Source: a virus. From it: 30,153 nt of DNA. Below, in pieces: positions 1,076 through 14,450 of this stretch. The position numbers and the translations under genes were made by a program. The stretch covers positions 1-30,153 of IMG/VR virus record IMGVR_UViG_3300044630_007490; one strand, 5' to 3'. The notes beneath the pieces were generated by a model, which was given only the letters and a program-made list of their open reading frames with translations, was not told where the DNA came from and did not search any database. Position 1 is the stretch's first letter; each line of letters starts with the position of its first letter.

Positions 1076-3010
1076 TTATTGACCTTTTATTTTTTCAATC
1101 AAAGCCTTTAACATATTATAATCACCTGTATGAACTTTTTTATCCACTCTCTTGTTATCTAAAACCATAGTTACCACCTGGTCTTTTTCATCTAAAAACT
1201 CCATTATGTCCTCATCTATAGTCCCTACACAATATAGGGTAATAATCTGAATATTATCATGTGTTGTAGACGCTCTGTGAATTCTATCTTCGGCCTGCAT
1301 CATATCGCCAGGCGTCCATCCAAAGCCTAAAAATATCAAACGACTCGCCTCTGTAAGACTGATTCCGACACCTGAAGCCATAATCATTCCTGAAAAAACT
1401 TTTATATCCTTATTCTTCTGAAAGTTTTGATAAGATTCAAATTTATCATTCTCATTCATTGATCCTGTATGCAGAACTGATATCTTAGGAAACAACTTAT
1501 GAACCTCTTCTGCGAGTTCTTGTAGATCAGACATAATGACAACCTTCTCGCCCCCATCAATTATATCCTGAATATAATCTATGGCTCTCTTCAATTTACA
1601 TCTACCAGTAAATAATTTAAGCTTTGCAATTTTTGCCAAATAAGACTCTTCTACAGACTTCCCATTTTCATCTTCTTTTTTGAAAGACTTCAAAATTTGT
1701 TCATACTCTTTATACTCAGCATCAGTTAGTTCTATTGGCATATTTGTATATGTCTTTGGAGGCAAGTCTTGTAAAACATCTTTTTTCAACCTTCTAAGGA
1801 ATACTCCAGAAATCCTGGTGAATAATTGCTCCAAGTTTGATACACCGCTATAATCCCATCCAAAACCAGTGTCGTATCCAGCGCAATATTTTACTCCGAA
1901 CTCATGTTGATTATTCCACTCGTCTTTATTTAAAAAGTTTAAAGAAGTGAAAAACTCTGATGGCCTACTCTTAATTGCTGTACCTGAAATTAAAATCTTT
2001 CTAGGTATAGTGTCTCTAAATGCTCGAACAATAACCTGTGTCCAACCTGTCTTCTTTTCTTTAATTCTGTGAGATTCATCAATTACAATTAAATCATAAT
2101 CTTCAGGATTTAAATACTCTCCAAACCCATCTTCAAAATATTGTAGAGAATGAAATGTTGACCTAAATGTTTTTTTATTCTTGCACTGAGGACATTCTAC
2201 TTGAGTTTTATTTAGATTTATTATTTCGCAACCACACTCAACCATTCCGTTACCTGCAGTTCTAATCATTTTTCCTTTACACTTATGTTTATACTCAATC
2301 TTAACATAACTATCTAGCGACTCATAGTTTATCACATGGAAAAGAGATTCATCTTTCTTATATGCAACGTCTTTGCTTCTTTTTTTGGGCATATACTTAT
2401 ACACAAAAGCTTTTTCGTTTGTAAAGTCGTCAATTTCCTTTCTCCAATTAAGCTTAAGTGATGATGGGCATATTACCAATGTCTTATATTGATGTTTGAC
2501 AGCATAAGAAATTGCAGACAATGTTTTTCCGACACCAGGTTGATCACCCAATATTGCCTTACCATCATTTATCTCAAAAAACTTTACAGCTTGTTTTTGA
2601 TAGTTGTATGGTTTTCTCTTTAAGAAAGAATAATCTTCTTCAGAAATGTCTAAAGATTCTGCTTTAAGTTTTAAAATTTCAGCAAGCCTCTTTTGTCTAT
2701 CTGAGTACTCCTTTCTCAATTTGTTGATATCATCCTCAGGAACATTTTGAAACGTGAAAGGTATTCCGTTATCGACCATAAAATTAACCACATTACCCAT
2801 TGCGTACTCACGGACAGTTCTTACCCAATCAGCTTTTTCAACACCATCGGCGTTCATTATGGAGTCTTTCCTTGTGCTTCTATGCTCTTTTGGTAAAGAC
2901 TTTATGTATTCAGAAAGCATTTTATTGAAATCATATCTGAGTTCATAATTTGTTTTTAACTTTCTTACATTTACTTCATTCTTTTGTGAATCTGCTTGCT
3001 TCTTTGCCAT
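1076..3010 (-). CDS. SNF2-family (superfamily 2) helicase/translocase with zinc-finger insert
   Basis: 644 residues with a complete SF2/SNF2 motif set: a Q-motif-like 'YNYQKQAV' (about 135-142), Walker A 'GDQPGVGKT' (155-163), motif II 'DESH' (311-314), motif III 'SGT' (342-344), the SNF2 stretch 'LRRLKKDVLQDLPPK' (405-419) and motif VI 'QAEDRIHR' (572-579). Between the Walker A and DESH motifs is an insert with five cysteines (C244, C259, C261, C273, C276), a probable zinc-binding module. The product should be a cytoplasmic ATP-driven DNA translocase. By analogy with T4 UvsW or SMARCAL1-like enzymes it may remodel forks or recombination intermediates, but that role is inferred. It is the last gene of a leftward group that includes a Cas4/RecB-like nuclease. 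Its start lies 1 base after the preceding stop, with an AGGTGA sequence just upstream, one of the few Shine-Dalgarno-like sites here. Confidence 0.9.
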   Translation of the reverse strand: MAKKQADSQKNEVNVRKLKTNYELRYDFNKMLSEYIKSLPKEHRSTRKDSIMNADGVEKADWVRTVREYAMGNVVNFMVDNGIPFTFQNVPEDDINKLRKEYSDRQKRLAEILKLKAESLDISEEDYSFLKRKPYNYQKQAVKFFEINDGKAILGDQPGVGKTLSAISYAVKHQYKTLVICPSSLKLNWRKEIDDFTNEKAFVYKYMPKKRSKDVAYKKDESLFHVINYESLDSYVKIEYKHKCKGKMIRTAGNGMVECGCEIINLNKTQVECPQCKNKKTFRSTFHSLQYFEDGFGEYLNPEDYDLIVIDESHRIKEKKTGWTQVIVRAFRDTIPRKILISGTAIKSRPSEFFTSLNFLNKDEWNNQHEFGVKYCAGYDTGFGWDYSGVSNLEQLFTRISGVFLRRLKKDVLQDLPPKTYTNMPIELTDAEYKEYEQILKSFKKEDENGKSVEESYLAKIAKLKLFTGRCKLKRAIDYIQDIIDGGEKVVIMSDLQELAEEVHKLFPKISVLHTGSMNENDKFESYQNFQKNKDIKVFSGMIMASGVGISLTEASRLIFLGFGWTPGDMMQAEDRIHRASTTHDNIQIITLYCVGTIDEDIMEFLDEKDQVVTMVLDNKRVDKKVHTGDYNMLKALIEKIKGQ

Positions 3011-3011
3011 A

Positions 3012-3344
3012 TCACCTATTTTTTCTTTTTTCTTCCAATTTTCGAATTCTTTCGTCTTCTTTCTTTAGTCTTGTATTTTCTGCTTTGATTGCCTTGTCTA
3101 GGGCGGAACTTTTGCTTACAGACTTGTTTTTTCTCTTCCTGTCTCTTCTTTGAATTTGATCTCTCATAATCAAAGAAAGAAGTCTAACATCCTGTAATGT
3201 TTTTCTAACATCAACACCTGCTGCGTGATTATTATGAAGCACCAATTCAGTTCTTTTCTTTGCGCCCTCAGCCACCTCAATTATCTTGTAAAGCAAATCA
3301 AGTTCGCTATAAGTCTTTAGTTCTTCTAATTCGCTTAAATCCAT
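3012..3344 (-). CDS. Small basic protein, possibly related to histone H1-like (Hc1) phage proteins
   Basis: 110 residues. The first half is helical and includes 'HAAGVDVRKTLQDVR', which resembles the 'AAG..RKALQ' core of short Hc1/histone-H1-like proteins seen in many Bacteroidota and their phages. The second half is rich in lysine and arginine (R-K-R-K-N-K and a C-terminal K/R/E coiled coil), consistent with nucleic-acid binding. The Hc1 relation is a weak pattern match made by eye. The gene lies between the helicase and a small unknown gene with 1-base gaps on both sides, so it is certainly co-transcribed with them. A role beside the recombination enzymes is plausible. Confidence 0.7.
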   Translation of the reverse strand: MDLSELEELKTYSELDLLYKIIEVAEGAKKRTELVLHNNHAAGVDVRKTLQDVRLLSLIMRDQIQRRDRKRKNKSVSKSSALDKAIKAENTRLKKEDERIRKLEEKRKNR

Positions 3345-3345
3345 A

Positions 3346-3759
3346 TTAGGAATTGTTTGACAAGTTATTTAATGATTCTTTTAGTCTGTTTGCCATTTCC
3401 GCCTTCTCTTCTTCTGAGACGCTCTTCATGGAGGCAGTCTGTTCATTTCTCTTCTTCACAATTTCGTATACAGGAACACCTTCTTGAGTGGCTTGGAAGC
3501 AATCAAGTGCGTATCTGTCATCGCAATACAAGTCAAATTCTATTTTGACAAAAACAGTCCCTTCCATCTTGACATTTACATTTCCACTATCTTGAACCGA
3601 TTGTACCTCCACCCAAAACATTGGGATTAAATTTTCTTCATCGCCAAGTTTTCTAGCGCATTCTTCTAGGTTCACCATTACTTTAATTTCACTATTTTTT
3701 GCTCTTTGCAAAACTTCTTTAATGTAATCAGAAACCTGTTGTTTAGTGTAATAAGCCAT
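3346..3759 (-). CDS. Hypothetical protein in the helicase–nuclease operon
   Basis: 137 residues from the ATG at 3759 ('MAYYTKQQVSDYIKEV'). A TTG seven codons upstream is open but would overlap the preceding gene by 17 bases. The ATG sits 4 bases after that gene's TAA behind an A-rich leader typical of this window, so I prefer it. The N-terminal 20 residues look helical, the middle ('MFWVEVQSVQ', 'GTVFVKIEFDLYCDD') looks like beta strands, and the C-terminus is a charged helix. There is no recognised family, signal peptide or membrane segment. Its place between a nuclease and a DNA-binding-like protein suggests a DNA-metabolism accessory role, which is inference only. Confidence 0.75.
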   Translation of the reverse strand: MAYYTKQQVSDYIKEVLQRAKNSEIKVMVNLEECARKLGDEENLIPMFWVEVQSVQDSGNVNVKMEGTVFVKIEFDLYCDDRYALDCFQATQEGVPVYEIVKKRNEQTASMKSVSEEEKAEMANRLKESLNNLSNNS

Positions 3760-3763
3760 AATT

Positions 3764-4687
3764 TTATTTTTTATGTTCAATTAATAATTTTTTATGTTGT
3801 TTATCAGATGAGTCGCACATTGGGTGCTTTCCGCCTTTAAGTGGGCAAAACATACAACCCATTCTGTCTCCCAATGTAAACTTTATCTTTGGAAAGGATT
3901 TTTCTATATGAATCATTTTTATAGATTTTGCCAACTTCTCTAGGGAATATTTTATTTCCTCCTTGCTTGAGTTTATATCAACTGTTTGGATATTTCCAGG
4001 ATAAGAATTTGGATCCTTCTTCTTTCTAAGTCTGTTTAAAACTACATATGAGCAATCAACATTATCTAAATCAATATTGTTCTTTCTTGACCAAAAGAAT
4101 TTATAAAACCTCATTTGGCATAAAAAAATCTCATCTTTTTTCTTTTTTTCCACATCCCAGTCTTCTCCAGAAGTTTTCCAATCCAAAATCTTATAGCGTT
4201 TCGTAACTTTATTTTGCAAAACCAAATCTATAAATCCTTTAAAAAAATACTTAGAAAAAATATTTTCATATAAAGCTTCTTCAACTGAAACCAAATCATA
4301 CTCATCTAAGATTTTATTTAAATCCAAGAATTTTAATATTTGTTCACCCTGAGTTAGGAAATGATGAAGACTAAACTTGTAATCGTTTGTTTCCCTCATA
4401 TTGTCCATCATATCCTTGGAAAATGTTGCTTTAAAATATTCAATTCTTTTTTCGATAGACAGATTATCCTTCAGAGAAAGTTCAATTGTTGAGTGAATTG
4501 CATTACCAAAATACAAATGTATTGATGGTGGTTGTTGCAATAAACCCAAGCGCTTTTCAAGCAGGTGTCTATGCCCACATTGATTAAATAAAGAAAACTC
4601 ACTGAAGCTGATATGTTTTCTATCAGGATTTTCTTTTTTTAATACTTTGTAACTTTCGTTTTTATCTATAATTTTTTCTTCTGCCAT
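3764..4687 (-). CDS. PD-(D/E)XK nuclease of the Cas4/RecB type, probable Fe-S cluster
   Basis: 307 residues. The order of motifs matches the RecB/Cas4 nuclease fold: 'FGNAIHSTIE' with H65, 'GFIDLV' with D154, 'ILDWKTS' with D169 and K171, and a downstream Q191 in 'QMRFYKF'. C37 in 'FNQCGHRH' and a C-terminal C278-x2-C281-x9-C291 cluster are placed like the four Fe-S ligands of Cas4 and AddB. The likely activity is metal-dependent DNA exonuclease or end processing during recombination. It leads the leftward group with two small proteins and the SNF2-like helicase; helicase–nuclease pairing is common in recombination systems. No CRISPR array or other Cas gene is present, so an adaptation role is not supported. 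The start is an ATG preceded by a TAnnTTTG-like element. Confidence 0.88.
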   Translation of the reverse strand: MAEEKIIDKNESYKVLKKENPDRKHISFSEFSLFNQCGHRHLLEKRLGLLQQPPSIHLYFGNAIHSTIELSLKDNLSIEKRIEYFKATFSKDMMDNMRETNDYKFSLHHFLTQGEQILKFLDLNKILDEYDLVSVEEALYENIFSKYFFKGFIDLVLQNKVTKRYKILDWKTSGEDWDVEKKKKDEIFLCQMRFYKFFWSRKNNIDLDNVDCSYVVLNRLRKKKDPNSYPGNIQTVDINSSKEEIKYSLEKLAKSIKMIHIEKSFPKIKFTLGDRMGCMFCPLKGGKHPMCDSSDKQHKKLLIEHKK

Positions 4688-4693
4688 AATTTA

Positions 4694-4701
4694 CAAATAT
4701 A
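4694..4701 (-). promoter_or_regulatory. TAnnTTTG-like -7 element (Bacteroidota sigma-A type)
   Basis: Read leftward the sequence is TATATTTG, matching the Bacteroidota -7 consensus TAnnTTTG, 6 bases before the ATG at 4687. No matching -33 TTTG is visible at the usual 19-21 base spacing. If used, transcription would start almost at the ATG. This is weak evidence. Confidence 0.25.
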
Positions 4702-4735
4702 CAAAAAAACAGCGTAAAAATAAGTTTTTTGGACA

Positions 4736-4744
4736 TATTTATTA
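4736..4744 (+). promoter_or_regulatory. TATTTATTA motif, candidate phage promoter element
   Basis: TATTTATTA ends only 3 bases before the ATG at 4748. It is the same motif as before other unit-leading genes. If it is a -10-like element, the transcript would be leaderless or the start codon would lie further in. Confidence 0.3.
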
Positions 4745-4747
4745 AAG

Positions 4748-5311
4748 ATGTTGCTTAGCGAAACATATAAGAAAAGACTTAAAGAGTTGGCTGGATTGTC
4801 ATCTTTAGACGAAGGTATGGATCCAACTAGCAAGTCAGATGCTCTGAACAAAAGTTCTGAAAGGTTTAGTTTTAATGCTGATTCTATGAAGCAGGCTATC
4901 GAACAAGGTCGTGAAATTGGATTAAACTTTCAATCCAACAACAAGAACTATAAAATGCCAACGACAAAATCTAGAATTATTTGGCCTGTAGCAATGGGTA
5001 CGGATGAAAATGGGAACTTGGTAGTTAGAGGATATCACTTAGCAGGTCAGTCTGAAAAAGCGGCGAGAGAGACTGGAGTCAGAAGTGCTGAAGCAGAAGA
5101 TGTTTGGAGATTATTTAAGGTAAGTAATATTAAAGCTATGTGGCTTACTGATAACTTTTTTAGTCAACCGCTTCCAAACTATAAAGAGAAAGATAGTGCT
5201 ATGGTTACTATGATGGCCAGCTACAGCCCCGCAAAAGCAAGAGCATACCAAGACTCAATTCAGAATCAGGTAGAGACAGAGCCAGAGGCAGGCGCAGAAA
5301 CCGAAGCTTAA
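4748..5311 (+). CDS. Hypothetical protein with WYL-like C-terminal pattern
   Basis: 187 residues. It opens with an amphipathic helix ('LLSETYKKRLKELAGL') of a kind common at the N-terminus of large-phage virion-associated proteins. The central part is beta-rich: 'RIIWPVAMGTDENGNL', 'VVRGYHLAGQSE' and 'VWRLFKVSNIKAMWL'. Its strand pattern loosely recalls WYL-type ligand-binding domains, but no WYL triad is present and the match is weak. The C-terminus is acidic and low-complexity (E/A/T rich). It is the only rightward gene between two leftward replication groups. Its stop overlaps the stop of the converging gene by two bases within TTAA. Its function is unknown. Confidence 0.7.
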   Translation: MLLSETYKKRLKELAGLSSLDEGMDPTSKSDALNKSSERFSFNADSMKQAIEQGREIGLNFQSNNKNYKMPTTKSRIIWPVAMGTDENGNLVVRGYHLAGQSEKAARETGVRSAEAEDVWRLFKVSNIKAMWLTDNFFSQPLPNYKEKDSAMVTMMASYSPAKARAYQDSIQNQVETEPEAGAETEA

Positions 5312-5745
5312 ATAATCAATAACTTTTCAGCCTTACCTTTTATGTTCTCTAAATTAGAGGAACAAGATGTATATCCTGTTTTACAATTTTCAGATAAAAA
5401 AGATTTATCTTTCACATATAGGTTGTAAATAGTAAAACCCTTTTTTATCTCAAACACAAACTTGTTGCGGACAAAACCTTTAAGAGTCCCATTATTTACT
5501 ATTTCCCACCTAATCTTAACACCTTTTTTAAGAGCGTCCTCAATTGTCTTCACCTTCTTTTGCTCTTGAACTTTTCTTTGATTGTCTCTAATCTTTCTAT
5601 CGATAATAGATTGCATAGCTTGGCGCTGAAGTATTTCTCTTTCATACGCCTCTCTCTGTAAGTTCATAGCCCTTTCTTCCGCAGCTTTTTTTATAAACTC
5701 GGATGGATTTTCCTCTATTGGGTTATCTTCGTAGTCATCTTCCAT
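5308..5745 (-). CDS. Small coiled-coil protein coupled to the SbcCD-like fusion
   Basis: 145 residues. The first ~20 residues are acidic. A long charged helix follows (about 18-75, 'REAYEREILQRQAMQ' onward), probably a coiled coil. The last ~65 residues look like a small beta domain ('IRWEIVNNGTLKGFV', 'FEIKKGFTIYNLYVK'). I do not recognise a family. The ATG overlaps the TAA of the upstream fusion gene by one base (TAATG), so translation is probably coupled. That suggests a partner of the recombination nuclease or primase, but this is inference. There is no membrane segment. Confidence 0.75.
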   Translation of the reverse strand: MEDDYEDNPIEENPSEFIKKAAEERAMNLQREAYEREILQRQAMQSIIDRKIRDNQRKVQEQKKVKTIEDALKKGVKIRWEIVNNGTLKGFVRNKFVFEIKKGFTIYNLYVKDKSFLSENCKTGYTSCSSNLENIKGKAEKLLII

Positions 5746-8700
5746 TATGATATAGATATTGTTGTAACTCCAGCTTCAGGATTTGCATCTAAAATTTCTT
5801 GAGAAATTCCTTTCTTAATTTTTTTCACCTCAATAATATTGTCAGCAAAATCTTTAATTTCATTTTTGTGAGTAACAAAAATTACATTCTTGTGCTTACT
5901 CTTTAAATATTGTAAAATATTTACAATTTCCAAAGAAAGTCTATCATCCAAAGTTCCAAATCCCTCATCTATAATTGAAATTGATGGTTTTGTAAGTGTA
6001 CTAATAAAATGTAGAGCATCTTTAATTGCTATTGATGCCACAAACTTTTGAGCCCCAGATGCAAACTGAAGAGGTAAGGAATCTGCTTTATCATCACTAT
6101 AATAGAAGTATTCAAAAATATCTCCGTTTGGAAGAATATCAAGCTCCACTTTAAAGCCGACAATTTGCTGAAGAATAGAATTAATCTTGCTGTTTATAAT
6201 CGGTAATTTCTTTCTAATAATTAAAGCAGGAATTCCATCTCTATGCATAGCTTGCAAGTAGATTGAATACTTTCTAAACATTTTCTCGACTTCTTTTATC
6301 GATTCTAGCTTTTCGGAATTTGTTTTTATTTCAGATTCCAAAACTCTTATGTCACCATATACTTCCGTGATGTTTTTATCTAGCCCATACAATGTTTGCT
6401 TGTACGCTCTAGATACTTCATCTTGTGAATTTATATACTCCTGAATCGATTTATTTTTAGTTTCTTTCTTTTTGTTTTCCGAAATCTTCGTCAAGTTTTC
6501 TTTCAGCCCTTCTATTGTCTTTTCAGTTTGTGCTTTTACAGCTCTACCTTTTTCCAGCCTAGTTGAATTGTCTTCGACTTTTTTGTTATGTTCTATGATT
6601 TCTTTCATAGATTCAAAAAGCGAAAGCCTGCCTTTAAGAAGATCTATCTTTTCTTTTCTGTTCTGCAAAGAGTCGGTAATATTTTTCTTCTTCTCTGTCT
6701 GTCCTTCTATTAAAAGATTTTCTCTTGCAATTCCATTATTTGAGTCGATTTGGTTTTGTAAATTTGCTATTTCGCCTTTCTTCAATTCTATACTTGCCAA
6801 GCACTCTTTCTCCTTTTCAGGATCTGCTTTCTGTTGCACATTTCCACAAGTTGGACAAGATTTACCCATAAATGTTGGAAGCTGACTTTGCAACGTAGTA
6901 ACTTCTTCTCGTAGAGAAATTATTTTTGTATCCAACCCATCAATGTTGAGCAAATCTTTCTTTACTTTATCGCTTAGCCAAGAATCAATTTTGACATATT
7001 CATCTTTTTCTTTTTTAAAGTCAGTTTGAGCAGTTGCCAATTCTTTTATAACACCCTCTTCTGTCTCCCCTTCTTTAAATGGAAGTTCCTTCTTAAAGTT
7101 TGTAGATAACCAACCTTCCAAGTCACTAATTGCTTTATCGTACTTAACTAGATTTTCCCCTTCTTGCTTTATAAGATTTTCGACAACAGTAGAGTCATTA
7201 TATTTTAATTGCTCTATCTTATCAAGTTTCTTAGTTTGCTCAATAATATCTTTATCAACCCCCTCTTTGTTTTTCGTTACATCTTCCTTGTCAGCTTTTA
7301 ACCTGTCAAGCATAATATCCTTATCTGATTTACTTTTTTCTAATTCAGTAACTTTTAGCTCAATTTCTAGCTTAGCGCCAATTTCTTTTTGCTTCTTCTT
7401 AATTTCCTTAAAGTACTCATTTGCATATTCATAACGCATTTTATACGCCTCCAATCCGAGGTATCTACTTATGAGAGCATTCTTTGGTTGCTGACTTTGA
7501 TTGATGTAGTCATCCTTACCGCCTTGAACTTGTAGGGTTACTTTTGTGAAATCGTCAACATCTCCTATTGACTCTTCAACAAGACTTTCCACTTCTCTTT
7601 TTTCGGCAGTTGCCTTATCAGATTTTTCATTCTCCCAAGACTCACTTTCCAAATCACCATCTTGATCATAACCCAATTCCAAGGATTGATATTTTATTCC
7701 GTAAGAATTTGATATTTTCCCATCTTTGTGCTTAGTGGTTTTTATGGTTCTGTGAATCTTATACTTCTTATCATCTATTGTCAAATAAATTGTTACATAT
7801 CCTTGATTAGAGTCCGTATATAAGTTAACAAGGAACTTTGGGTCACCTCCACCTAGTATCTCTTTGTACAGCCCCCAAACGATTGCTTTAATAACATTTG
7901 ACTTACCATTGTAATTCTCACCAAATAAACCAGTGATTCCATTGAGGGAATTAAAATCAACAACAGTTGGTTTGATTGGAAAAGAAAAAATATTACTTAT
8001 TTCTATTTTTTCCATAAACCAAGAACTACCAGTCTTGTCTTCATGCTCGTTTATTCCAAGCTCTTTATTGAGGTCTGCATTTAATTTAAGTATTTCAGAA
8101 ATTTCTTCTTCGTCACAATCAAATGTACCATCTGCAATAAACTCTTTGATGTATTCTTCGCTTTGCTTTCTTGGATCCTCAACTGATTCATCGTCAATAA
8201 GAATATCTTTTGCGACAAATGAGTGCTCAACTTTTACAAGTTCACACCTATGTTTTTCTTTTATTTGTCTAGTAATTTGATTTTCTCTTTCTTGAGAGAA
8301 ATTTTCTTCCAACTCCTCAATGATAATATGAACTCTCGTTTTCTTCTTATTATGACTGAATCTAAGATGTGTCAATCTATCATCGATATTCTCACCCCTG
8401 GCAATTACAAGTTTAGAAAACCCATAATCATTTGGAATAAATTTTCTAACGTGAGAATTTGTATCCGTATCCCAAATTAAATAGCCCTTATCTAGCGACT
8501 CACCATAATTCTGTTGTATCAAGCTGCCACAATAAGCGACAGATGCGTCGTCTCTAAAACTTTGGTATTCATGTATATCACCCAACATAACGATATCAAA
8601 ATGCTTAAAAGTGCTTAATCTCATAAGGTTATCACCCTTTTGCTCATAACCATTATCACCTCTAGACCCATAAACAGTACCATGGTATAGTGCTATGTAT

Positions 8701-9200
8701 TTTTTTCCCTCTTCTCTAGAAGTTAACTCGATGATTTCATCGTCCTTACAAGAAAAATTTCCATACACAATTTCATCACCAATATTGTAGATACCACTAT
8801 TTGGGTAGTAATAAATTGCCTTTTTATTGTAATCAATTTCGTCCTTATTTTCGTCCGTCACAATGAAAGCGGTTTTATCGCCATCTCTTTCGAACATGCC
8901 ACCCAATTTGAATATTGGAGATATTGCATCCCCTTGTTCTAATTGTTGTAGGTTAAGATCATGATTTCCTAATATTACATCTGTTGGCGCAATCTTGGAA
9001 AGATTTAACAAAAACTCAGCTAACAACTCGAAAGAGTTTGGCGACATATTTATTTTGTGATGAACCAAGTCACCGCCCAAAAATATTCTATCTGGTTTTT
9101 GTATTTTTAAATCCTCATAAAGTCTTCCAAATACCTGTCTGTATTCATCATGTCTGGATCCAAAACGTATTTGGATGTCCGCAAGGTGAGCAATTTTCAT
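5745..9200 (-). CDS. Single-chain Mre11–Rad50 (SbcD–SbcC) recombination nuclease/ATPase
   Basis: 1151 residues, a fusion of what are usually two proteins (T4 gp47 and gp46). Residues 1-~390 are Mre11/SbcD-like: D8 in 'HLADIQ', GD at 43-44, 'GNHD' (78-81), H173 in 'LYHGT' and 'GDIH' (207-210). From ~395 onward it is SbcC/Rad50-like: Walker A 'GENYNGKSN' (427-435), Q-loop near 'VTLQVQGGKDDY' (554-565), long coiled coils, zinc hook CPTC at 782-785, signature-like 'SGAQKF' (about 1048), Walker B with D1078-E1079, D-loop 'TLD' (to 1085) and H-loop H1111. The product should process DNA ends for recombination-dependent replication. Two usual Mre11 metal-site histidines are replaced (Q10, D208), a change also plausible among phage relatives. 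The ATG shares a 4-base overlap with the primase stop, and the 3' end overlaps the next ATG. The reading frame is continuous with no sign of a sequencing fusion. Confidence 0.93.
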   Translation of the reverse strand: MKIAHLADIQIRFGSRHDEYRQVFGRLYEDLKIQKPDRIFLGGDLVHHKINMSPNSFELLAEFLLNLSKIAPTDVILGNHDLNLQQLEQGDAISPIFKLGGMFERDGDKTAFIVTDENKDEIDYNKKAIYYYPNSGIYNIGDEIVYGNFSCKDDEIIELTSREEGKKYIALYHGTVYGSRGDNGYEQKGDNLMRLSTFKHFDIVMLGDIHEYQSFRDDASVAYCGSLIQQNYGESLDKGYLIWDTDTNSHVRKFIPNDYGFSKLVIARGENIDDRLTHLRFSHNKKKTRVHIIIEELEENFSQERENQITRQIKEKHRCELVKVEHSFVAKDILIDDESVEDPRKQSEEYIKEFIADGTFDCDEEEISEILKLNADLNKELGINEHEDKTGSSWFMEKIEISNIFSFPIKPTVVDFNSLNGITGLFGENYNGKSNVIKAIVWGLYKEILGGGDPKFLVNLYTDSNQGYVTIYLTIDDKKYKIHRTIKTTKHKDGKISNSYGIKYQSLELGYDQDGDLESESWENEKSDKATAEKREVESLVEESIGDVDDFTKVTLQVQGGKDDYINQSQQPKNALISRYLGLEAYKMRYEYANEYFKEIKKKQKEIGAKLEIELKVTELEKSKSDKDIMLDRLKADKEDVTKNKEGVDKDIIEQTKKLDKIEQLKYNDSTVVENLIKQEGENLVKYDKAISDLEGWLSTNFKKELPFKEGETEEGVIKELATAQTDFKKEKDEYVKIDSWLSDKVKKDLLNIDGLDTKIISLREEVTTLQSQLPTFMGKSCPTCGNVQQKADPEKEKECLASIELKKGEIANLQNQIDSNNGIARENLLIEGQTEKKKNITDSLQNRKEKIDLLKGRLSLFESMKEIIEHNKKVEDNSTRLEKGRAVKAQTEKTIEGLKENLTKISENKKKETKNKSIQEYINSQDEVSRAYKQTLYGLDKNITEVYGDIRVLESEIKTNSEKLESIKEVEKMFRKYSIYLQAMHRDGIPALIIRKKLPIINSKINSILQQIVGFKVELDILPNGDIFEYFYYSDDKADSLPLQFASGAQKFVASIAIKDALHFISTLTKPSISIIDEGFGTLDDRLSLEIVNILQYLKSKHKNVIFVTHKNEIKDFADNIIEVKKIKKGISQEILDANPEAGVTTISIS

Positions 9201-10183
9201 TCGTTTAATATTTTTGTGAGTCTATAACTTATATCTAATCTCTTTGCTGTTTTTAATAGGGCTGTAACAGCAGCTTGCCCTTCATCTTCAAATAGTTTTG
9301 AAATATCTTTTTTGCTTGTCAAATCCACAAAATAAACATCTAAACCTAATGATGTCATTTGGTCATAATATTGAACACTATCCTTAAATGCATCTCCATC
9401 TAAACAAAGCACAACTCTAGGGTTATGTTTCAATAATTTATCTATTAACAACGGAGAAACACCTTTACCTAATAGGGGAATGGAGTTTGGAACTCTAATT
9501 GAATCAAAAACACCTTCGACCAAATATACGGTTAAATTCCAATTTATAAAATACTCATTATAAATTATATCTTGTACATTAGGGTGATTGGGTTTATAAT
9601 ATGGTATTTTAGGGTTAAGCATATAAGACCTAGCCTCAAAATAATTTATTTTACCAGCAGAATTAAGTGATGGTAAGATGATTCTATACTTTCTCGGTCC
9701 TGTTTCTGTGTATCCAATTTTATATTTGTCTATTTGCTGAGGAGATATCTTTCTTTCTTTTGTCGCATAATCATAAGCCATTCTATAAAGATTTGTATTT
9801 CTCTCATAACTTAGAGGAAGATACCCTTCAGGTAAATCGCAAGTAATTAAATCATAGTTAATTTCGGGTTTCTTGAAAATATTTAGATTTTGGCTCTTGT
9901 TGTCAGGAAGCAATAGTTTTAACCTATTCAAGTCGGATTGCTTTCCGTAATCACCAACAAGCCTATATACGAAACCTCTGTAATTACATTTCCAACAATT
10001 AAAAACAAAAGTGGAAGCGTTGTATGTTAGATTGAATTTATCGTGATCATGGCGACAAGTTGGACTAACACAGTTAAATTCCCACTGTATTTTACTGTCG
10101 GAGTTTCTTGAGTTTTTTGGAGCACCCAAAAACCCTTCCAGCAAATTAACAATTAAAAATCTATTTTCTTCTTGACCAACCAT
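9197..10183 (-). CDS. DnaG-type DNA primase (zinc-binding plus Toprim domains)
   Basis: 328 residues from the ATG at 10183; a TTG six codons upstream is open but less likely. An N-terminal zinc module is formed by C38-x4-C43 and C63-x2-C66 ('NCWKC'). The middle contains the basic region typical of the DnaG polymerase core, 'KINYFEARSY'. The Toprim motifs are 'LVEGVFDS' with E223 and 'LCLDGDAF' with D262 and D264. The protein is about half the length of bacterial DnaG and lacks an obvious C-terminal helicase-binding domain or fused helicase, as in several phage primases. It should make RNA primers for phage DNA synthesis. It is the first gene of the leftward replication operon and overlaps the SbcCD fusion by 4 bases (ATGA), implying coupled translation. 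Confidence 0.9.
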   Translation of the reverse strand: MVGQEENRFLIVNLLEGFLGAPKNSRNSDSKIQWEFNCVSPTCRHDHDKFNLTYNASTFVFNCWKCNYRGFVYRLVGDYGKQSDLNRLKLLLPDNKSQNLNIFKKPEINYDLITCDLPEGYLPLSYERNTNLYRMAYDYATKERKISPQQIDKYKIGYTETGPRKYRIILPSLNSAGKINYFEARSYMLNPKIPYYKPNHPNVQDIIYNEYFINWNLTVYLVEGVFDSIRVPNSIPLLGKGVSPLLIDKLLKHNPRVVLCLDGDAFKDSVQYYDQMTSLGLDVYFVDLTSKKDISKLFEDEGQAAVTALLKTAKRLDISYRLTKILNE

Positions 10184-10188
10184 AAAGA

Positions 10189-10196
10189 CAAAGTTA
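10189..10196 (-). promoter_or_regulatory. TAnnTTTG-like -7 element before the primase
   Basis: Read leftward the sequence is TAACTTTG, 5 bases before the ATG at 10183. It fits the Bacteroidota sigma-A -7 consensus TAnnTTTG, but no -33 TTTG is seen at the expected distance. Its position resembles that of the element before the nuclease gene at 4687. Confidence 0.25.
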
Positions 10197-10232
10197 GTCA
10201 AAAAAATTGATTAAAAAATTATGTAATCATAC

Positions 10233-10994: not shown

Positions 10995-12617
10995 ATGAAA
11001 TATCGCTTAAGAACAAAAATTATATTAGCTATCGCTATTATGACGATGCTAATTTTTGGATGGGTTAAAACATCGGTTCTTATCGGTCACATGCCTTCTA
11101 CAGAAATTACTAGATGGATGGAATTTACATGTTTTATCTTATTCATTCCTATATTCACTCTATTAATCCGAGATGCTATCAATTCTACTAAAGATTCGGT
11201 ATCTAAAGATTTAGTAGATAAGTTGCTTGAGCTTGAGAATTTTTTAGATTCTTCTTCTATCATTTCTAAAGCAGATAAATACGGAAAGATTACTTATGTG
11301 AATGACAAATTTACCGAAGTCTCTGGTTATTCACTAGAAGAAGTGATCGGTAAAGATCATAACATCGTAAATAGCGGAACGCATTCAAAAGAGTTTTGGT
11401 CTGATATGTATCATACGGTTGTTAAAGAAAAGAAAATTTGGAACGCTATATGCACTAATCGTGCAAAGGATGGCTCTTTATACTACGTAGATACGTTTAT
11501 TAAATGTGAGTTTGATGAAAAAGGTAATCTTCAAGGGTTTATGTCAATTCGTCAAGATGTTACTGAATTAAAAAGAAAAGAAACTGAGATTTCTAACAGA
11601 ATGAGCGCTATTAACCAATCGAATGCGGTTATTGAATTTGACTTAGAAGGTAACATAAAATTTGCTAATAAACTATTTTTAAAAACTTTAGGATATGATA
11701 CAAATAAAGAGCTTGTCGGAAAACATCATAGTTTATTTGTTGAAGATGGTGTAAGAGATACTAAAGAATACCGAGATTTTTGGAAAACTTTAGGTGAAGG
11801 AAAATTCTTTAGCGGAGAGGTTACACGAAAGAAAAAAGACGGAACTATAATTTATCTTCAAGCAACATACAATCCTATTATAGATAATGACGGTAAATCT
11901 TATCGAGTAATGAAAATTGCTACTGATATTACCGAAAGCTATAATCAGCAGAAAGAGATAGAAAAGAAAAATACATATCTTGAGCATGCTGCTAAAATAC
12001 TTAGGCATGACATGCATAGCGGAATTAACACTTATATGCCTCGTGGTTTGACTTCGTTAGACAGAAGATTAACTGAAGAACAAATAAAAGAATTGAAAAT
12101 TGAAGCTCCTATTAAAATGATAAAAGAAGGCCTTCGACATACACAGAAAGTCTATAAAGGAGTTTACGAATTTACTAATCTTGTAAAGAAAGATGTAGTG
12201 TTAAATCGATTGAATTGTAATCTGAAAGCTATTCTAGAAGATTATCTTTCTGCAACAGCTTATAGACCTCAAGTTAATCTTTCTGACCTAGGGGAGTTTA
12301 GTGTTAACGAAGCGTTATTTTGCACATCATTAGATAATTTAATACGCAACGGTCTTAAATATAATGATAGCTTATCTAAAATGATAAATATATATAGAGT
12401 AGATGATACATTATTTGTAGAAGACAATGGAAGAGGTTTATCTCAAGAAGAATTTAATCATCTATCTAAGCCGTATACTCGCAAGGAAGGACAGCAAGAA
12501 TCTGGGACAGGTCTAGGTCTTAATATCTGTATTGCTATATTAGAAGAGCATAAATTTTCAATTACTTGTGATAAATTACCTCAAGGTGGAACTCAAATTA
12601 AAATAAAATTAAAATAA
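10995..12617 (+). CDS. Membrane sensor histidine kinase with two PAS domains
   Basis: 540 residues. Two membrane helices (about 7-30 and 43-58) flank a very short outside loop, so sensing is probably in the membrane or cytoplasm. PAS 1 spans about 82-192 ('YVNDKFTEVSGYSLEEVIGK') and PAS 2 about 203-316 ('LFLKTLGYDTNKELVGK'). The dimerisation helix carries the candidate phosphoacceptor H338 in 'KILRHDMHSGI'. The ATPase domain has an intact N box (N448, N452), G1 'EDNGRG' (D477) and G2 'GTGLGLN' (504-510). The protein should autophosphorylate and pass phosphate to the receiver encoded 1 base after its stop. No heme- or flavin-binding residues can be assigned by eye, so the signal is unknown. 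A complete kinase in a phage lysis cassette is unusual. Composition matches its neighbours, so there is no sign of very recent host acquisition. Confidence 0.93.
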   Translation: MKYRLRTKIILAIAIMTMLIFGWVKTSVLIGHMPSTEITRWMEFTCFILFIPIFTLLIRDAINSTKDSVSKDLVDKLLELENFLDSSSIISKADKYGKITYVNDKFTEVSGYSLEEVIGKDHNIVNSGTHSKEFWSDMYHTVVKEKKIWNAICTNRAKDGSLYYVDTFIKCEFDEKGNLQGFMSIRQDVTELKRKETEISNRMSAINQSNAVIEFDLEGNIKFANKLFLKTLGYDTNKELVGKHHSLFVEDGVRDTKEYRDFWKTLGEGKFFSGEVTRKKKDGTIIYLQATYNPIIDNDGKSYRVMKIATDITESYNQQKEIEKKNTYLEHAAKILRHDMHSGINTYMPRGLTSLDRRLTEEQIKELKIEAPIKMIKEGLRHTQKVYKGVYEFTNLVKKDVVLNRLNCNLKAILEDYLSATAYRPQVNLSDLGEFSVNEALFCTSLDNLIRNGLKYNDSLSKMINIYRVDDTLFVEDNGRGLSQEEFNHLSKPYTRKEGQQESGTGLGLNICIAILEEHKFSITCDKLPQGGTQIKIKLK

Positions 12618-12618
12618 A

Positions 12619-13050
12619 ATGATTGATTCAATATTATTAGTTGACGATGAAAGTTTATTTCATCTAGTATTTGAAGACGCTTGTAGTCTTCTAGATATTT
12701 CACTTTCATTAGAAAGTTTGGATAGTGCTGATGAAGCGGCTAAACTTTTCTCAGGCTGGCAAACAGAGCCAAGTGGCAAACCTGAATGTGTTTTTGTTGA
12801 CTTGAATATAATCGGCTCTTCATACGATGGTATTGAGCTTATACGTAAAATAAACTTTGAATATGGTAACAATGTAGTTATTGGAATTATATCCTCTTCT
12901 GATGAGCCTGAAGAACAAGCAAAAGCTGTAAAATCAGGAGCACAATTTTGGATAATCAAGTCAGATGACATTGAGCCAAGACTTGAAGAGTTTCGTAAAG
13001 ATTTTGAAGGTTATAAAAATAGAACAAATCCTTTCAAAATATACAGGTAA
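12619..13050 (+). CDS. Stand-alone response-regulator receiver protein (CheY/Spo0F-like)
   Basis: 143 residues, a single REC domain. Acidic pocket D9-D10 ('LLVDDE'), phosphoacceptor D61 ('VFVDLN'), switch serine S92 in 'GIISSSDEPEEQ' and K114 ('WIIKSDD') are all in place, so phosphotransfer chemistry should work. There is no DNA-binding or enzymatic output domain, only a short basic C-terminal tail ('GYKNRTNPFKIYR'). Output is therefore probably through protein–protein contact. The gene starts 1 base after the kinase stop and its own TAA overlaps the next ATG (TAATG), so all three products are likely made together. Confidence 0.93.
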   Translation: MIDSILLVDDESLFHLVFEDACSLLDISLSLESLDSADEAAKLFSGWQTEPSGKPECVFVDLNIIGSSYDGIELIRKINFEYGNNVVIGIISSSDEPEEQAKAVKSGAQFWIIKSDDIEPRLEEFRKDFEGYKNRTNPFKIYR

Positions 13051-13643: not shown

Positions 13644-14450
13644 ATGATACTAAAAAAAGGAGACAACAATGATACTGTTAAAAAGATTCAAGCAGTATTA
13701 GGTGTAGAACAAATAGGAAGCTTTGGCCCTAAAACAGAAGCTGCTGTTATTGAGTTTCAAAAAAAACACGGATTAACCCCAGATGGAGTTGTAGGCCCTA
13801 CAACATTAGCTAAAATGGGTATCGTCCTAGATGCTAAACCAACAACGGCAACAACACCAACAGGCAGGTATACTAAAGAACAAATTGAAACTGCCGTTAA
13901 GACAAAAGGTCATAAGTGGTTTGAAGATAAAGACTTTGTGTTAAATATTGTTGGAGTAAGAAATTCTTCAACAGGTCAAAAAGTAACTAATCTATTTGAT
14001 GATTATCTAACTCTTTCATATAAAGAAGATGGTGTTTGGAAATGCCACTCTTGGCCAGCTACTACAGACCCTGGAACAAAAGGAGTTATGCAGTATGGAA
14101 ATAAAGCTGGTGTTGCTAGATTAGTTGAGGGTCAATATATTAACTCTCACATTATGAGGCTTCACGCAGGTAAATATGAGGCACTAGGGCAGAATAAGCC
14201 AGTAAAAGTTTATCGTGATCCAAATAAGGATATGATATATGATGAAAAATCTATGCAAGAAGGTGTTTTTGGAATTAACATTCACAAAGCTGGTGCTGAT
14301 TCAACATATGTTGAAAATTGGTCAGAGGGGTGTCAAGTATTTAAAAAATCTGCAGACTTTGAAGAATTTATGAAAATATGTAGAAAGGCGAAAGATTTAC
14401 ACGGTAATAACTTTACATATACATTAATCGAATCAAAAGATATTGTATAA
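13644..14450 (+). CDS. Peptidoglycan-binding protein with L,D-transpeptidase-like domain
   Basis: 268 residues. Residues 1-~60 match PG_binding_1 ('LKKGDNNDTVKKIQAVLG', 'FQKKHGLTPDGVVGPTT'). A threonine/proline-rich linker follows at about 64-74. The C-terminal part includes 'GINIHKAG' (H214) and 'WSEGCQVF' (S227, G229, C230), the H…S-x-G-C arrangement of YkuD-type L,D-transpeptidases. No signal peptide is visible. It may cut or modify peptide cross-links as a second lysis enzyme, or block or rearrange the wall. It closes the lysis/two-component cassette after a 24-base gap with no terminator in it, so it is probably co-transcribed. The catalytic motif is seen; the direction of the reaction cannot be deduced. 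Confidence 0.83.
   Translation: MILKKGDNNDTVKKIQAVLGVEQIGSFGPKTEAAVIEFQKKHGLTPDGVVGPTTLAKMGIVLDAKPTTATTPTGRYTKEQIETAVKTKGHKWFEDKDFVLNIVGVRNSSTGQKVTNLFDDYLTLSYKEDGVWKCHSWPATTDPGTKGVMQYGNKAGVARLVEGQYINSHIMRLHAGKYEALGQNKPVKVYRDPNKDMIYDEKSMQEGVFGINIHKAGADSTYVENWSEGCQVFKKSADFEEFMKICRKAKDLHGNNFTYTLIESKDIV

Follow-up and report, generated by a model that had tools for sequence, protein, structure and literature searches.

Does one long frame in this viral DNA encode both Mre11 and Rad50, and if so, what is the single chain likely to do and how unusual is it among viruses? We analysed positions 1 to 30,153 of IMG/VR record IMGVR_UViG_3300044630_007490, a 30,153-nt stretch referred to here as the window, and collect its relevant features in Table 1.

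Table 1. Features of the fusion locus (window positions; residues are those of the fused protein).
Feature	Position	Strand	Basis
145-aa ORF, downstream, 1-nt overlap (TAATG)	5308..5745	-	
Fused Mre11-Rad50 (SbcD-SbcC) gene, 1151 aa	5745..9200	-	ORF, Pfam, PHROGs
Rad50 C-lobe, residues 986-1151 (signature, Walker B, D-loop, H-loop)	5748..6245	-	
Coiled coil, residues 584-985	6246..7451	-	predicted helices
Zinc-hook motif CPTC, residues 782-785	6846..6857	-	
Rad50 N-lobe, residues 393-580	7461..8024	-	AAA_23
Walker A GENYNGKS, residues 427-434	7899..7922	-	
Linker, 11 residues, 382-392	8025..8057	-	fold model, dN/dS
Helix-loop-helix (predicted), residues 347-381	8058..8162	-	predicted helices 347-357 and 364-381
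GDIH metal-site motif, residues 207-210; relatives elsewhere broken just after it	8571..8582	-	
Mre11/SbcD nuclease and capping domain, residues 1-330	8211..9200	-	Pfam Metallophos, structural match
DnaG-type primase gene, directly upstream, 4-nt overlap	9197..10201	-	phrog_47 E 8.7e-36; TIGR01391 E 2.7e-12

Two enzymes in one frame

The fusion gene runs in a single frame from ATG to TAA, with zero internal stops in its 1151 codons. Pfam places Metallophos at residues 1-212 (E 1.5e-11) and AAA_23 at 398-632 (E 1.4e-6), and PHROGs match the one protein twice, through the SbcD-like phrog_100 (E 5e-19) and the SbcC-like phrog_77 (E 2e-34). Residues 1-381 hold the Mre11/SbcD nuclease, capping domain and helix-loop-helix, while residues 393-1151 are a complete Rad50/SbcC. 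Predicted models of residues 1-326 and 394-1151 match S. aureus SbcD (7dog_A; Z 24.1, rmsd 3.7, 275 aligned) and the E. coli SbcC head (7yzo_D; Z 28.3, rmsd 3.3, 357 aligned), respectively.

The Rad50 half carries a split ABC head around the coiled coil, with Walker A, the signature SGAQ (1048-1051), Walker B (D1078-E1079) and the H-loop (H1111); the CPTC hook sits between the predicted coil arms, a CxxC zinc hook by both sequence and model. The Walker A Lys, D1078 and E1079 are kept in 85/85 uninterrupted fusions, and a CxxC lies within the expected range in 74/85. The Mre11 motifs are D8-x-Q10, GGD44, GN79H80D, H173 and GD208IH210. The metallophosphoesterase fold is matched and every ligand position occupied, with two departures from the textbook site: Gln stands in for the first metal-site His (Q10), and Asp for the first His of GHxH (D208). 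All 85 uninterrupted fusions keep D8, D44, N79, H80, H173 and H210, and all have Asp at position 208; at position 10, 62 have His and 23 have Gln. Judged from sequence, Q10 and D208 could alter metal choice or activity. By analogy, the helix-loop-helix is a putative Rad50-binding element, a role known for that of T. maritima Mre11 (PMC3175470).

The frame, Pfam, PHROGs, motifs and relatives thus confirm the original prediction of Mre11 and Rad50 functions in one 1151-codon polypeptide, and each motif that it listed, metallophosphatase motifs followed by Walker A, CPTC hook, signature, Walker B and H-loop, was located. One trivial explanation is an assembly or frame artefact joining two adjacent genes, given that the exact window sequence is covered by its own assembly only. 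However, six of the six close IMG/VR contigs other than the window (4 distinct sequences, with L003, L004 and L005 99.9-100% identical) have an uninterrupted frame of 1150-1151 codons, and across joint residues 379-395 synonymous changes far exceed amino-acid changes (dN/dS 0.028, six sequences). We therefore reject assembly error or chance as the source of the frame, an explanation also opposed by the fusion encoded in the cultured phage Mel-JY01, and regard it as next to impossible. Purifying selection acts on every region of the fusion (dN/dS 0.022-0.141).

Structure prediction of the joint, called for at the outset, delivered a position for the linker (382-392) but with low confidence at residues 387-389. 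Its 11 residues fall within the 9-12 that Yoshida, Claverie and Ogata (2011, PMC3175470) estimate, in the available text, for a gap of ~28 A. The whole-protein model has a pTM of 0.45, and the relative placing of the two halves is therefore unreliable; a first fold model made without an alignment (pLDDT 36.7) was discarded.

Proposed function and its rivals

We consider it highly probable that the protein is the phage's own one-chain Mre11-Rad50 (SbcD-SbcC), most likely an enzyme of DNA-end resection and bridging. This reading draws on the fusion, its domains, motifs and conservation, selection across the joint and the primase neighbour, and from these we infer dimerisation, catalysis and a role in replication. 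Two chains would probably pair through their Rad50 heads and Mre11 cores, for a total of two nuclease and two ATPase sites per dimer. DNA ends would enter the metal-dependent nuclease under the control of ATP binding and hydrolysis, while the coiled coil and CxxC hook would tether them. On the pattern of T4 gp46/gp47, resected ends may feed recombination-dependent replication. A primase match occurs in 80/87 fusion loci, 7 of the 87 having less than 1.3 kb of upstream sequence, and in 74/87 it is the immediately preceding gene in the same orientation; this conserved neighbour fits a replication-recombination operon. The 145-aa downstream ORF is matched in 6/87 loci, close relatives only.

The two departures at the metal site raise the possibility that the protein is Mre11-Rad50-shaped but has an inactive or retuned nuclease, acting mainly as an ATP-driven DNA tether. 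Q10 and D208 are present in the window, and D208 in every uninterrupted fusion, but so are the remaining metal ligands, and the nuclease half is under strong purifying selection (dN/dS 0.061). Furthermore, the two-gene, T5-type protein of PSTCR5 has Asp at the same GHxH position, and both Asp and Gln can bind metal. We therefore think such a tether unlikely. Less probable again, to the point of being hard to credit, is a phage-borne system of defence or inter-phage conflict (SMC plus nuclease, Lamassu-like) outside core replication. PADLOC LmuB is matched by the Rad50 half (E 9.4e-21), Lamassu structures are among the Foldseek matches and an SNF2 helicase lies nearby; however, LmuB is itself Rad50-like, so its match is expected of any Rad50, and neither LmuA nor LmuC was found among the 5 proteins scanned, making us regard the defence reading as weak. 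The conserved primase, and the fusion's apparent status as sole SbcC/SbcD in most records tested, also oppose it.

Fusions among viruses

Mre11/Rad50 fusions have been described in Mimivirus, a Bacillus phage, plasmids and eukaryotes, with aquatic viruses argued, in the available text, to be their main reservoir (Yoshida et al. 2011, PMC3175470). Further fusions were found here in Microcystis phage Mel-JY01, phages PAU, pT24, PTm1 and phiLo, a 735-kb phage and at least 70 additional viral contigs, and a structure search gave fusion-length matches among viral models. In trees from which Mimivirus R555 is absent, 25/26 fusions form one clade, separate from nine two-gene versions, and a recent one-off fusion is rejected. 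The statement that T4-type phages, like bacteria, encode the two enzymes separately holds in the genomes inspected (T4, Aeh1, Staphylococcus K, SPO1, Bacillus 043JT007, S-SKS1, PSTCR5, Moorella MTATph1 and E. coli K-12). The rarity that the original prediction implied is not borne out: many phage fusions exist, this type of fusion was published in 2011 (PMC3175470), and the survey largely found what had been set beforehand as refuting it, a fusion standard across many phage lineages. Our conclusion is that the fusion is normal for this virus group, in print since 2011, and that the window adds one more phage member.

Searches with phrog_77 and phrog_100 gave no second strong match in 9/10 virus records (short extra matches in Mel-JY01, E 7e-6 and 2e-4, were disregarded), and the fusion therefore seems to be the only version there. 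In the 735-kb phage, SbcC is matched a second time, and more strongly, at W02 670999-672753 (read with 4 stops), so the fusion may not be the main enzyme there. One cellular genome scan gave 23 loci, of which the 5 strongest (L105-L109) all lie on MAG contigs, which may be viral in origin and have been binned with the MAGs; seven plasmid records match the Mre11 half only.

Among the closest known systems are the viral Mimivirus R555-type fusions, as far as the available text describes them (PMC3175470): both enzymes lie in one polypeptide, Mre11 first and Rad50 C-terminal, as in the window, with a ~10-residue linker and Asp replacing the GHxH His, and marine scaffolds with such fusions carry primase genes. 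The window differs in being a phage-type contig and in its DxH His-to-Gln change; moreover, the phage fusions in our sample group into a single clade, whereas those of Yoshida et al., mostly cellular, are scattered (PMC3175470). The nearest cultured match is the full-length fusion of Mel-JY01 (WWT39521.1, 1066 aa; 26% identity over 98%), annotated 'AAA domain containing protein', which shares a primase gene close upstream but has His at position 10 and a CKHC hook. The cultured phages pT24, PAU and PTm1 encode full-length fusions of 1301-1318 aa (phrog_35725 'metallo-phosphoesterase' type, the match being tested for pT24 only) that differ from the window in their longer chain and deep branch, with no primase match beside pT24. 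T4 gp47/gp46 and E. coli SbcD/SbcC are the same two enzymes, the nuclease gene ahead of the ATPase gene, but unlike the window occupy two genes and retain GHxH; in T4, two small genes lie between. Records of relatives labelled only 'AAA domain' or 'metallo-phosphoesterase' could be relabelled as fusions, and structural studies of Mre11-Rad50 could use the window protein as a ready-made single chain.

Relatives with the fused gene broken again

In 13 relatives outside the window, the fused gene is broken inside the Mre11 active-site loop, all at one site, and in most the gap holds an endonuclease-like or other ORF. Each new end has a short, conserved tail shaped by purifying selection, a pattern that suggests two separate chains which may reassemble. 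We are evenly divided on whether mobile endonucleases land repeatedly in the fusion gene, insertion just past GDIH yielding two chains (the first part of Mre11; the rest of Mre11 with Rad50) held together by tails that form a split strand-helix-strand plus strand mini-domain. Such re-breaking with conserved tails may be new. If true, it shifts the chain boundary from the Mre11/Rad50 border to within the catalytic site of the nuclease, and would make this, after Aeh1 NrdA, a second instance in which tails rescue a broken gene, with no sequence relationship between the two. Compared by eye, the tails of Aeh1 NrdA appear dissimilar.

Across 18 virus records, the tail profile matched nowhere but in the fusion gene, and a resemblance of such tails to DUF4177 is not supported by Pfam. 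Pfam likewise gave no family for the in-frame insert of one locus (L130). Introns in the broken genes are rejected: across 13 loci, of which 12 are broken, no Rfam family scored as high as its gathering threshold, and lax searches of two inserts returned nothing for one and a chance-level snoRNA match (E 0.35) for the other.

That relatives break the gene again inside the Mre11 half suggests that covalent linkage is not essential, and 1:1 stoichiometry would follow from fusion if the chain stays uncut. Repeated re-breaking of the same gene at its active site, with conserved tails, would offer a natural experiment on how an enzyme in pieces stays functional in the absence of splicing. In the window, the gene is unbroken.

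The fused gene, its joint and its neighbours

The original prediction, that Mre11 and Rad50 functions are carried by one polypeptide, held: the fused frame (5745-9200, minus strand; 1151 codons, ATG to TAA) is uninterrupted, and both halves are recognised by profile and by fold. In Pfam and PHROGs searches the N-terminal part is an SbcD-like nuclease and the part following it an SbcC-like ATPase, and the closest solved structures by sequence are those of Rad50 and Mre11/SbcD. In a model of the protein built from a 45-sequence alignment (mean pLDDT 79.5, pTM 0.45), residues 1-326 match S. aureus SbcD (Z 24.1, rmsd 3.7, 275 aligned) and residues 394-1151 match the E. coli SbcC head (Z 28.3, rmsd 3.3, 357 aligned).

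The same frame runs without a stop through six IMG/VR contigs at 70-87% identity, which represent four distinct sequences because three are near-identical copies. Across six sequences (the window and the related loci L002-L006), dN/dS at joint residues 379-395 is 0.028, comparable to the values for the two ATPase lobes (0.022, 0.036) and below the 0.127 of the coiled coil. We therefore conclude that the joint is translated and selected as protein.

Features of the fused gene in the window and in other records
Feature	Record	Location	Strand	Remark
Mre11/Rad50 joint	window	residues 382-392; 8025-8057	-	second helix of the Mre11 helix-loop-helix to first Rad50 strand
Single-frame fusion	Microcystis phage Mel-JY01			1066 aa
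Single-frame fusion	pT24			1310 aa
Single-frame fusion	735-kb phage			1202 aa
Single-frame fusion	PAU			1301 aa
Single-frame fusion	PTm1			1318 aa
Single-frame fusion	Thermus phage phiLo (L102)	4001-6601		only 866 aa
Broken fusion gene	L009	2944-7166		break after GDIH
Broken fusion gene	L020	4501-8482		break after GDIH
Broken fusion gene	L023	1482-7302		break after GDIH
Broken fusion genes	L128-L129, L131-L138			break after GDIH

The fusion frame is overlapped by 4 nt by the upstream primase gene and by 1 nt by a downstream 145-aa ORF of no assigned function. Of 87 loci, 80 have a primase match, which in 74 lies immediately upstream in the same orientation; seven loci have less than 1.3 kb of upstream sequence, and the match was absent from five with enough. 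Other neighbour matches were to a PDDEXK exonuclease (12 loci), an SNF2 helicase (6) and a RuvC-like protein (21). Terminase matches were found in four larger records among 13 of the fusion family, and not in the window's own 30-kb record, using a profile that also matches 11 of 14 control genomes. The window also encodes a PAS-domain histidine kinase adjoining a response regulator (10995-13050), a two-component pair that would be unusual in a phage, and a protein with a peptidoglycan-binding domain (13644-14450), possibly a lysin.

Distribution and ancestry of the fusion

According to the available text of Yoshida, Claverie and Ogata (PMC3175470), Mre11/Rad50 fusions occur in Mimivirus R555 and in twelve others, including Bacillus phage 0305phi8-36; a linker of 9-12 residues makes the fused form compatible with the known complex, and aquatic viruses are argued to be the main niche. 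A jumbo-phage overview, as far as its available text goes, describes both SbcC and SbcD as nearly universal among such phages (PMC7824862). No later, more specific work on phage fusions was found among the listed titles and abstracts of open-licence papers.

At E 1e-5, matches were found in seven of 50,697 phage-collection records; PAU, PTm1 and phiLo were recovered solely at a laxer limit. A profile scan of IMG/VR found a relative encoded in at least 590 stretches (590 of the 600 listed, which is not a rate because the ranking favours full-length fusions), and the best 80 of these were taken on. By BLAST, an ORF matching both halves is present in 90 of 92 loci, among them four duplicates and three broken genes; the exceptions are pT24, whose fusion is too diverged for this step, and Moorella phage MTATph1, which has two genes. 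Fusion-length fold matches among viral models came from giant viruses (Tupanvirus, Harvfovirus, Catovirus and others), pT24 and PTm1. The window protein is of a known kind, and ordinary for its viral group.

The fusion is the sole strong SbcC/SbcD match in nine of ten records, the 735-kb phage (LR756501) being the exception. There, a second SbcC-like match stronger than the fusion (670999-672753) is read with four stops, and is possibly a broken gene or one with recoded stops.

Trees of 26 fusions and nine two-gene versions united 25 of the fusions in one group, both for the nuclease (support 92/92) and for the ATPase (99/97). The simplest reading for this set is a single old fusion, then passed on as a unit. 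The fusion of phiLo, a long branch of unsure placing that falls outside the main group on the nuclease tree, is possibly independent. Fusions form no single group in the mostly cellular set of Yoshida et al., as far as the available text describes it (PMC3175470); this is not in direct conflict with our trees, because the sequence sets differ and theirs was left out here.

The ligands D8, D44, N79, H80, H173 and H210 are invariant across the 85 uninterrupted fusions, in which position 208, His in canonical enzymes, is always Asp. At position 10, 62 of them have His and 23, including the window, have Gln; 77 retain the D-loop Asp (D1085). In the tree set, position 79 is Gln in phiLo, and position 208 is His in PAU and Asp in PSTCR5, a two-gene T5-type phage, so that Asp208 is typical of fusions but neither universal nor exclusive. 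Mimivirus R555 shares the His-to-Asp change, on the available text of PMC3175470.

Fusion genes broken again in relatives

The main interest of these results lies outside the window, in fusion genes that have been broken again. At L009, L020 and L023 the Mre11 half ends shortly past GDIHxxQ, and a later ORF encodes the remaining Mre11 and Rad50. Among the broken genes, the N-pieces end in a tail with a conserved Y...GW preceded by acidic residues; the C-pieces begin with ATG and a basic stretch (e.g. KIRIRR, KYRVKR, YVKIKRH). Scanning with the new N-terminal ends gave at least 11 loci: ten further broken genes, of which L135 and L136 are apparently one virus, and L130 (3461-6697), an unbroken fusion with an in-frame, tail-like extra segment in the active-site loop, which is a possible intermediate. 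In the 85 unbroken fusions, the spacing from GDIH to the next motif is 12-16 residues in 81 and 18-20 in three; in the remaining one (L026) it was miscounted by the search pattern.

Endonuclease-like ORFs, with weak Pfam matches to TnsA-like N, DUF7487, PvuRts1I-like and Vsr, occupy the gap in L009, L023 and L137, and a truncated one is found in L020. In eight loci (L128, L129, L131-L136) the gap holds another kind of ORF, some 300 codons long, with weak DUF354 matches in the two scanned. L138 has almost nothing in the gap, and a further break there detaches the second part of Mre11. The first two pieces of L138 lie too close together to leave space for an intron, and a frameshift joining them is possible; elsewhere Rfam found no introns.

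Among the papers listed, our literature search found no break of this kind in SbcC/SbcD. Crona et al. (2011) reportedly described Aeromonas phage Aeh1 NrdA as assembled through tails. This protein, interrupted by mobE yet functional, is the closest precedent in the available texts (PMC2988022; PMC3653736; PMC3267527). The tails of the broken fusions evolve as protein: over seven loci, dN/dS is 0.114 in the N-tail and 0.252 in the C-head, and a comparison of the L020 and L023 N-tails, with few changes to count, gives 0.133. Judging from their sequences, the tails would adopt a strand-helix-strand arrangement.

Placing 11 broken genes on the ATPase tree requires at least four changes of state, and therefore breaking arose or spread several times. 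The whole gene of L017 and the broken gene of L023 are 93% identical in DNA downstream and 88% upstream, and 36 bases in L017 (5146-5181) stand where L023 has about 2.4 kb (2127-4536): these are the empty and occupied states of an insertion site in close relatives.
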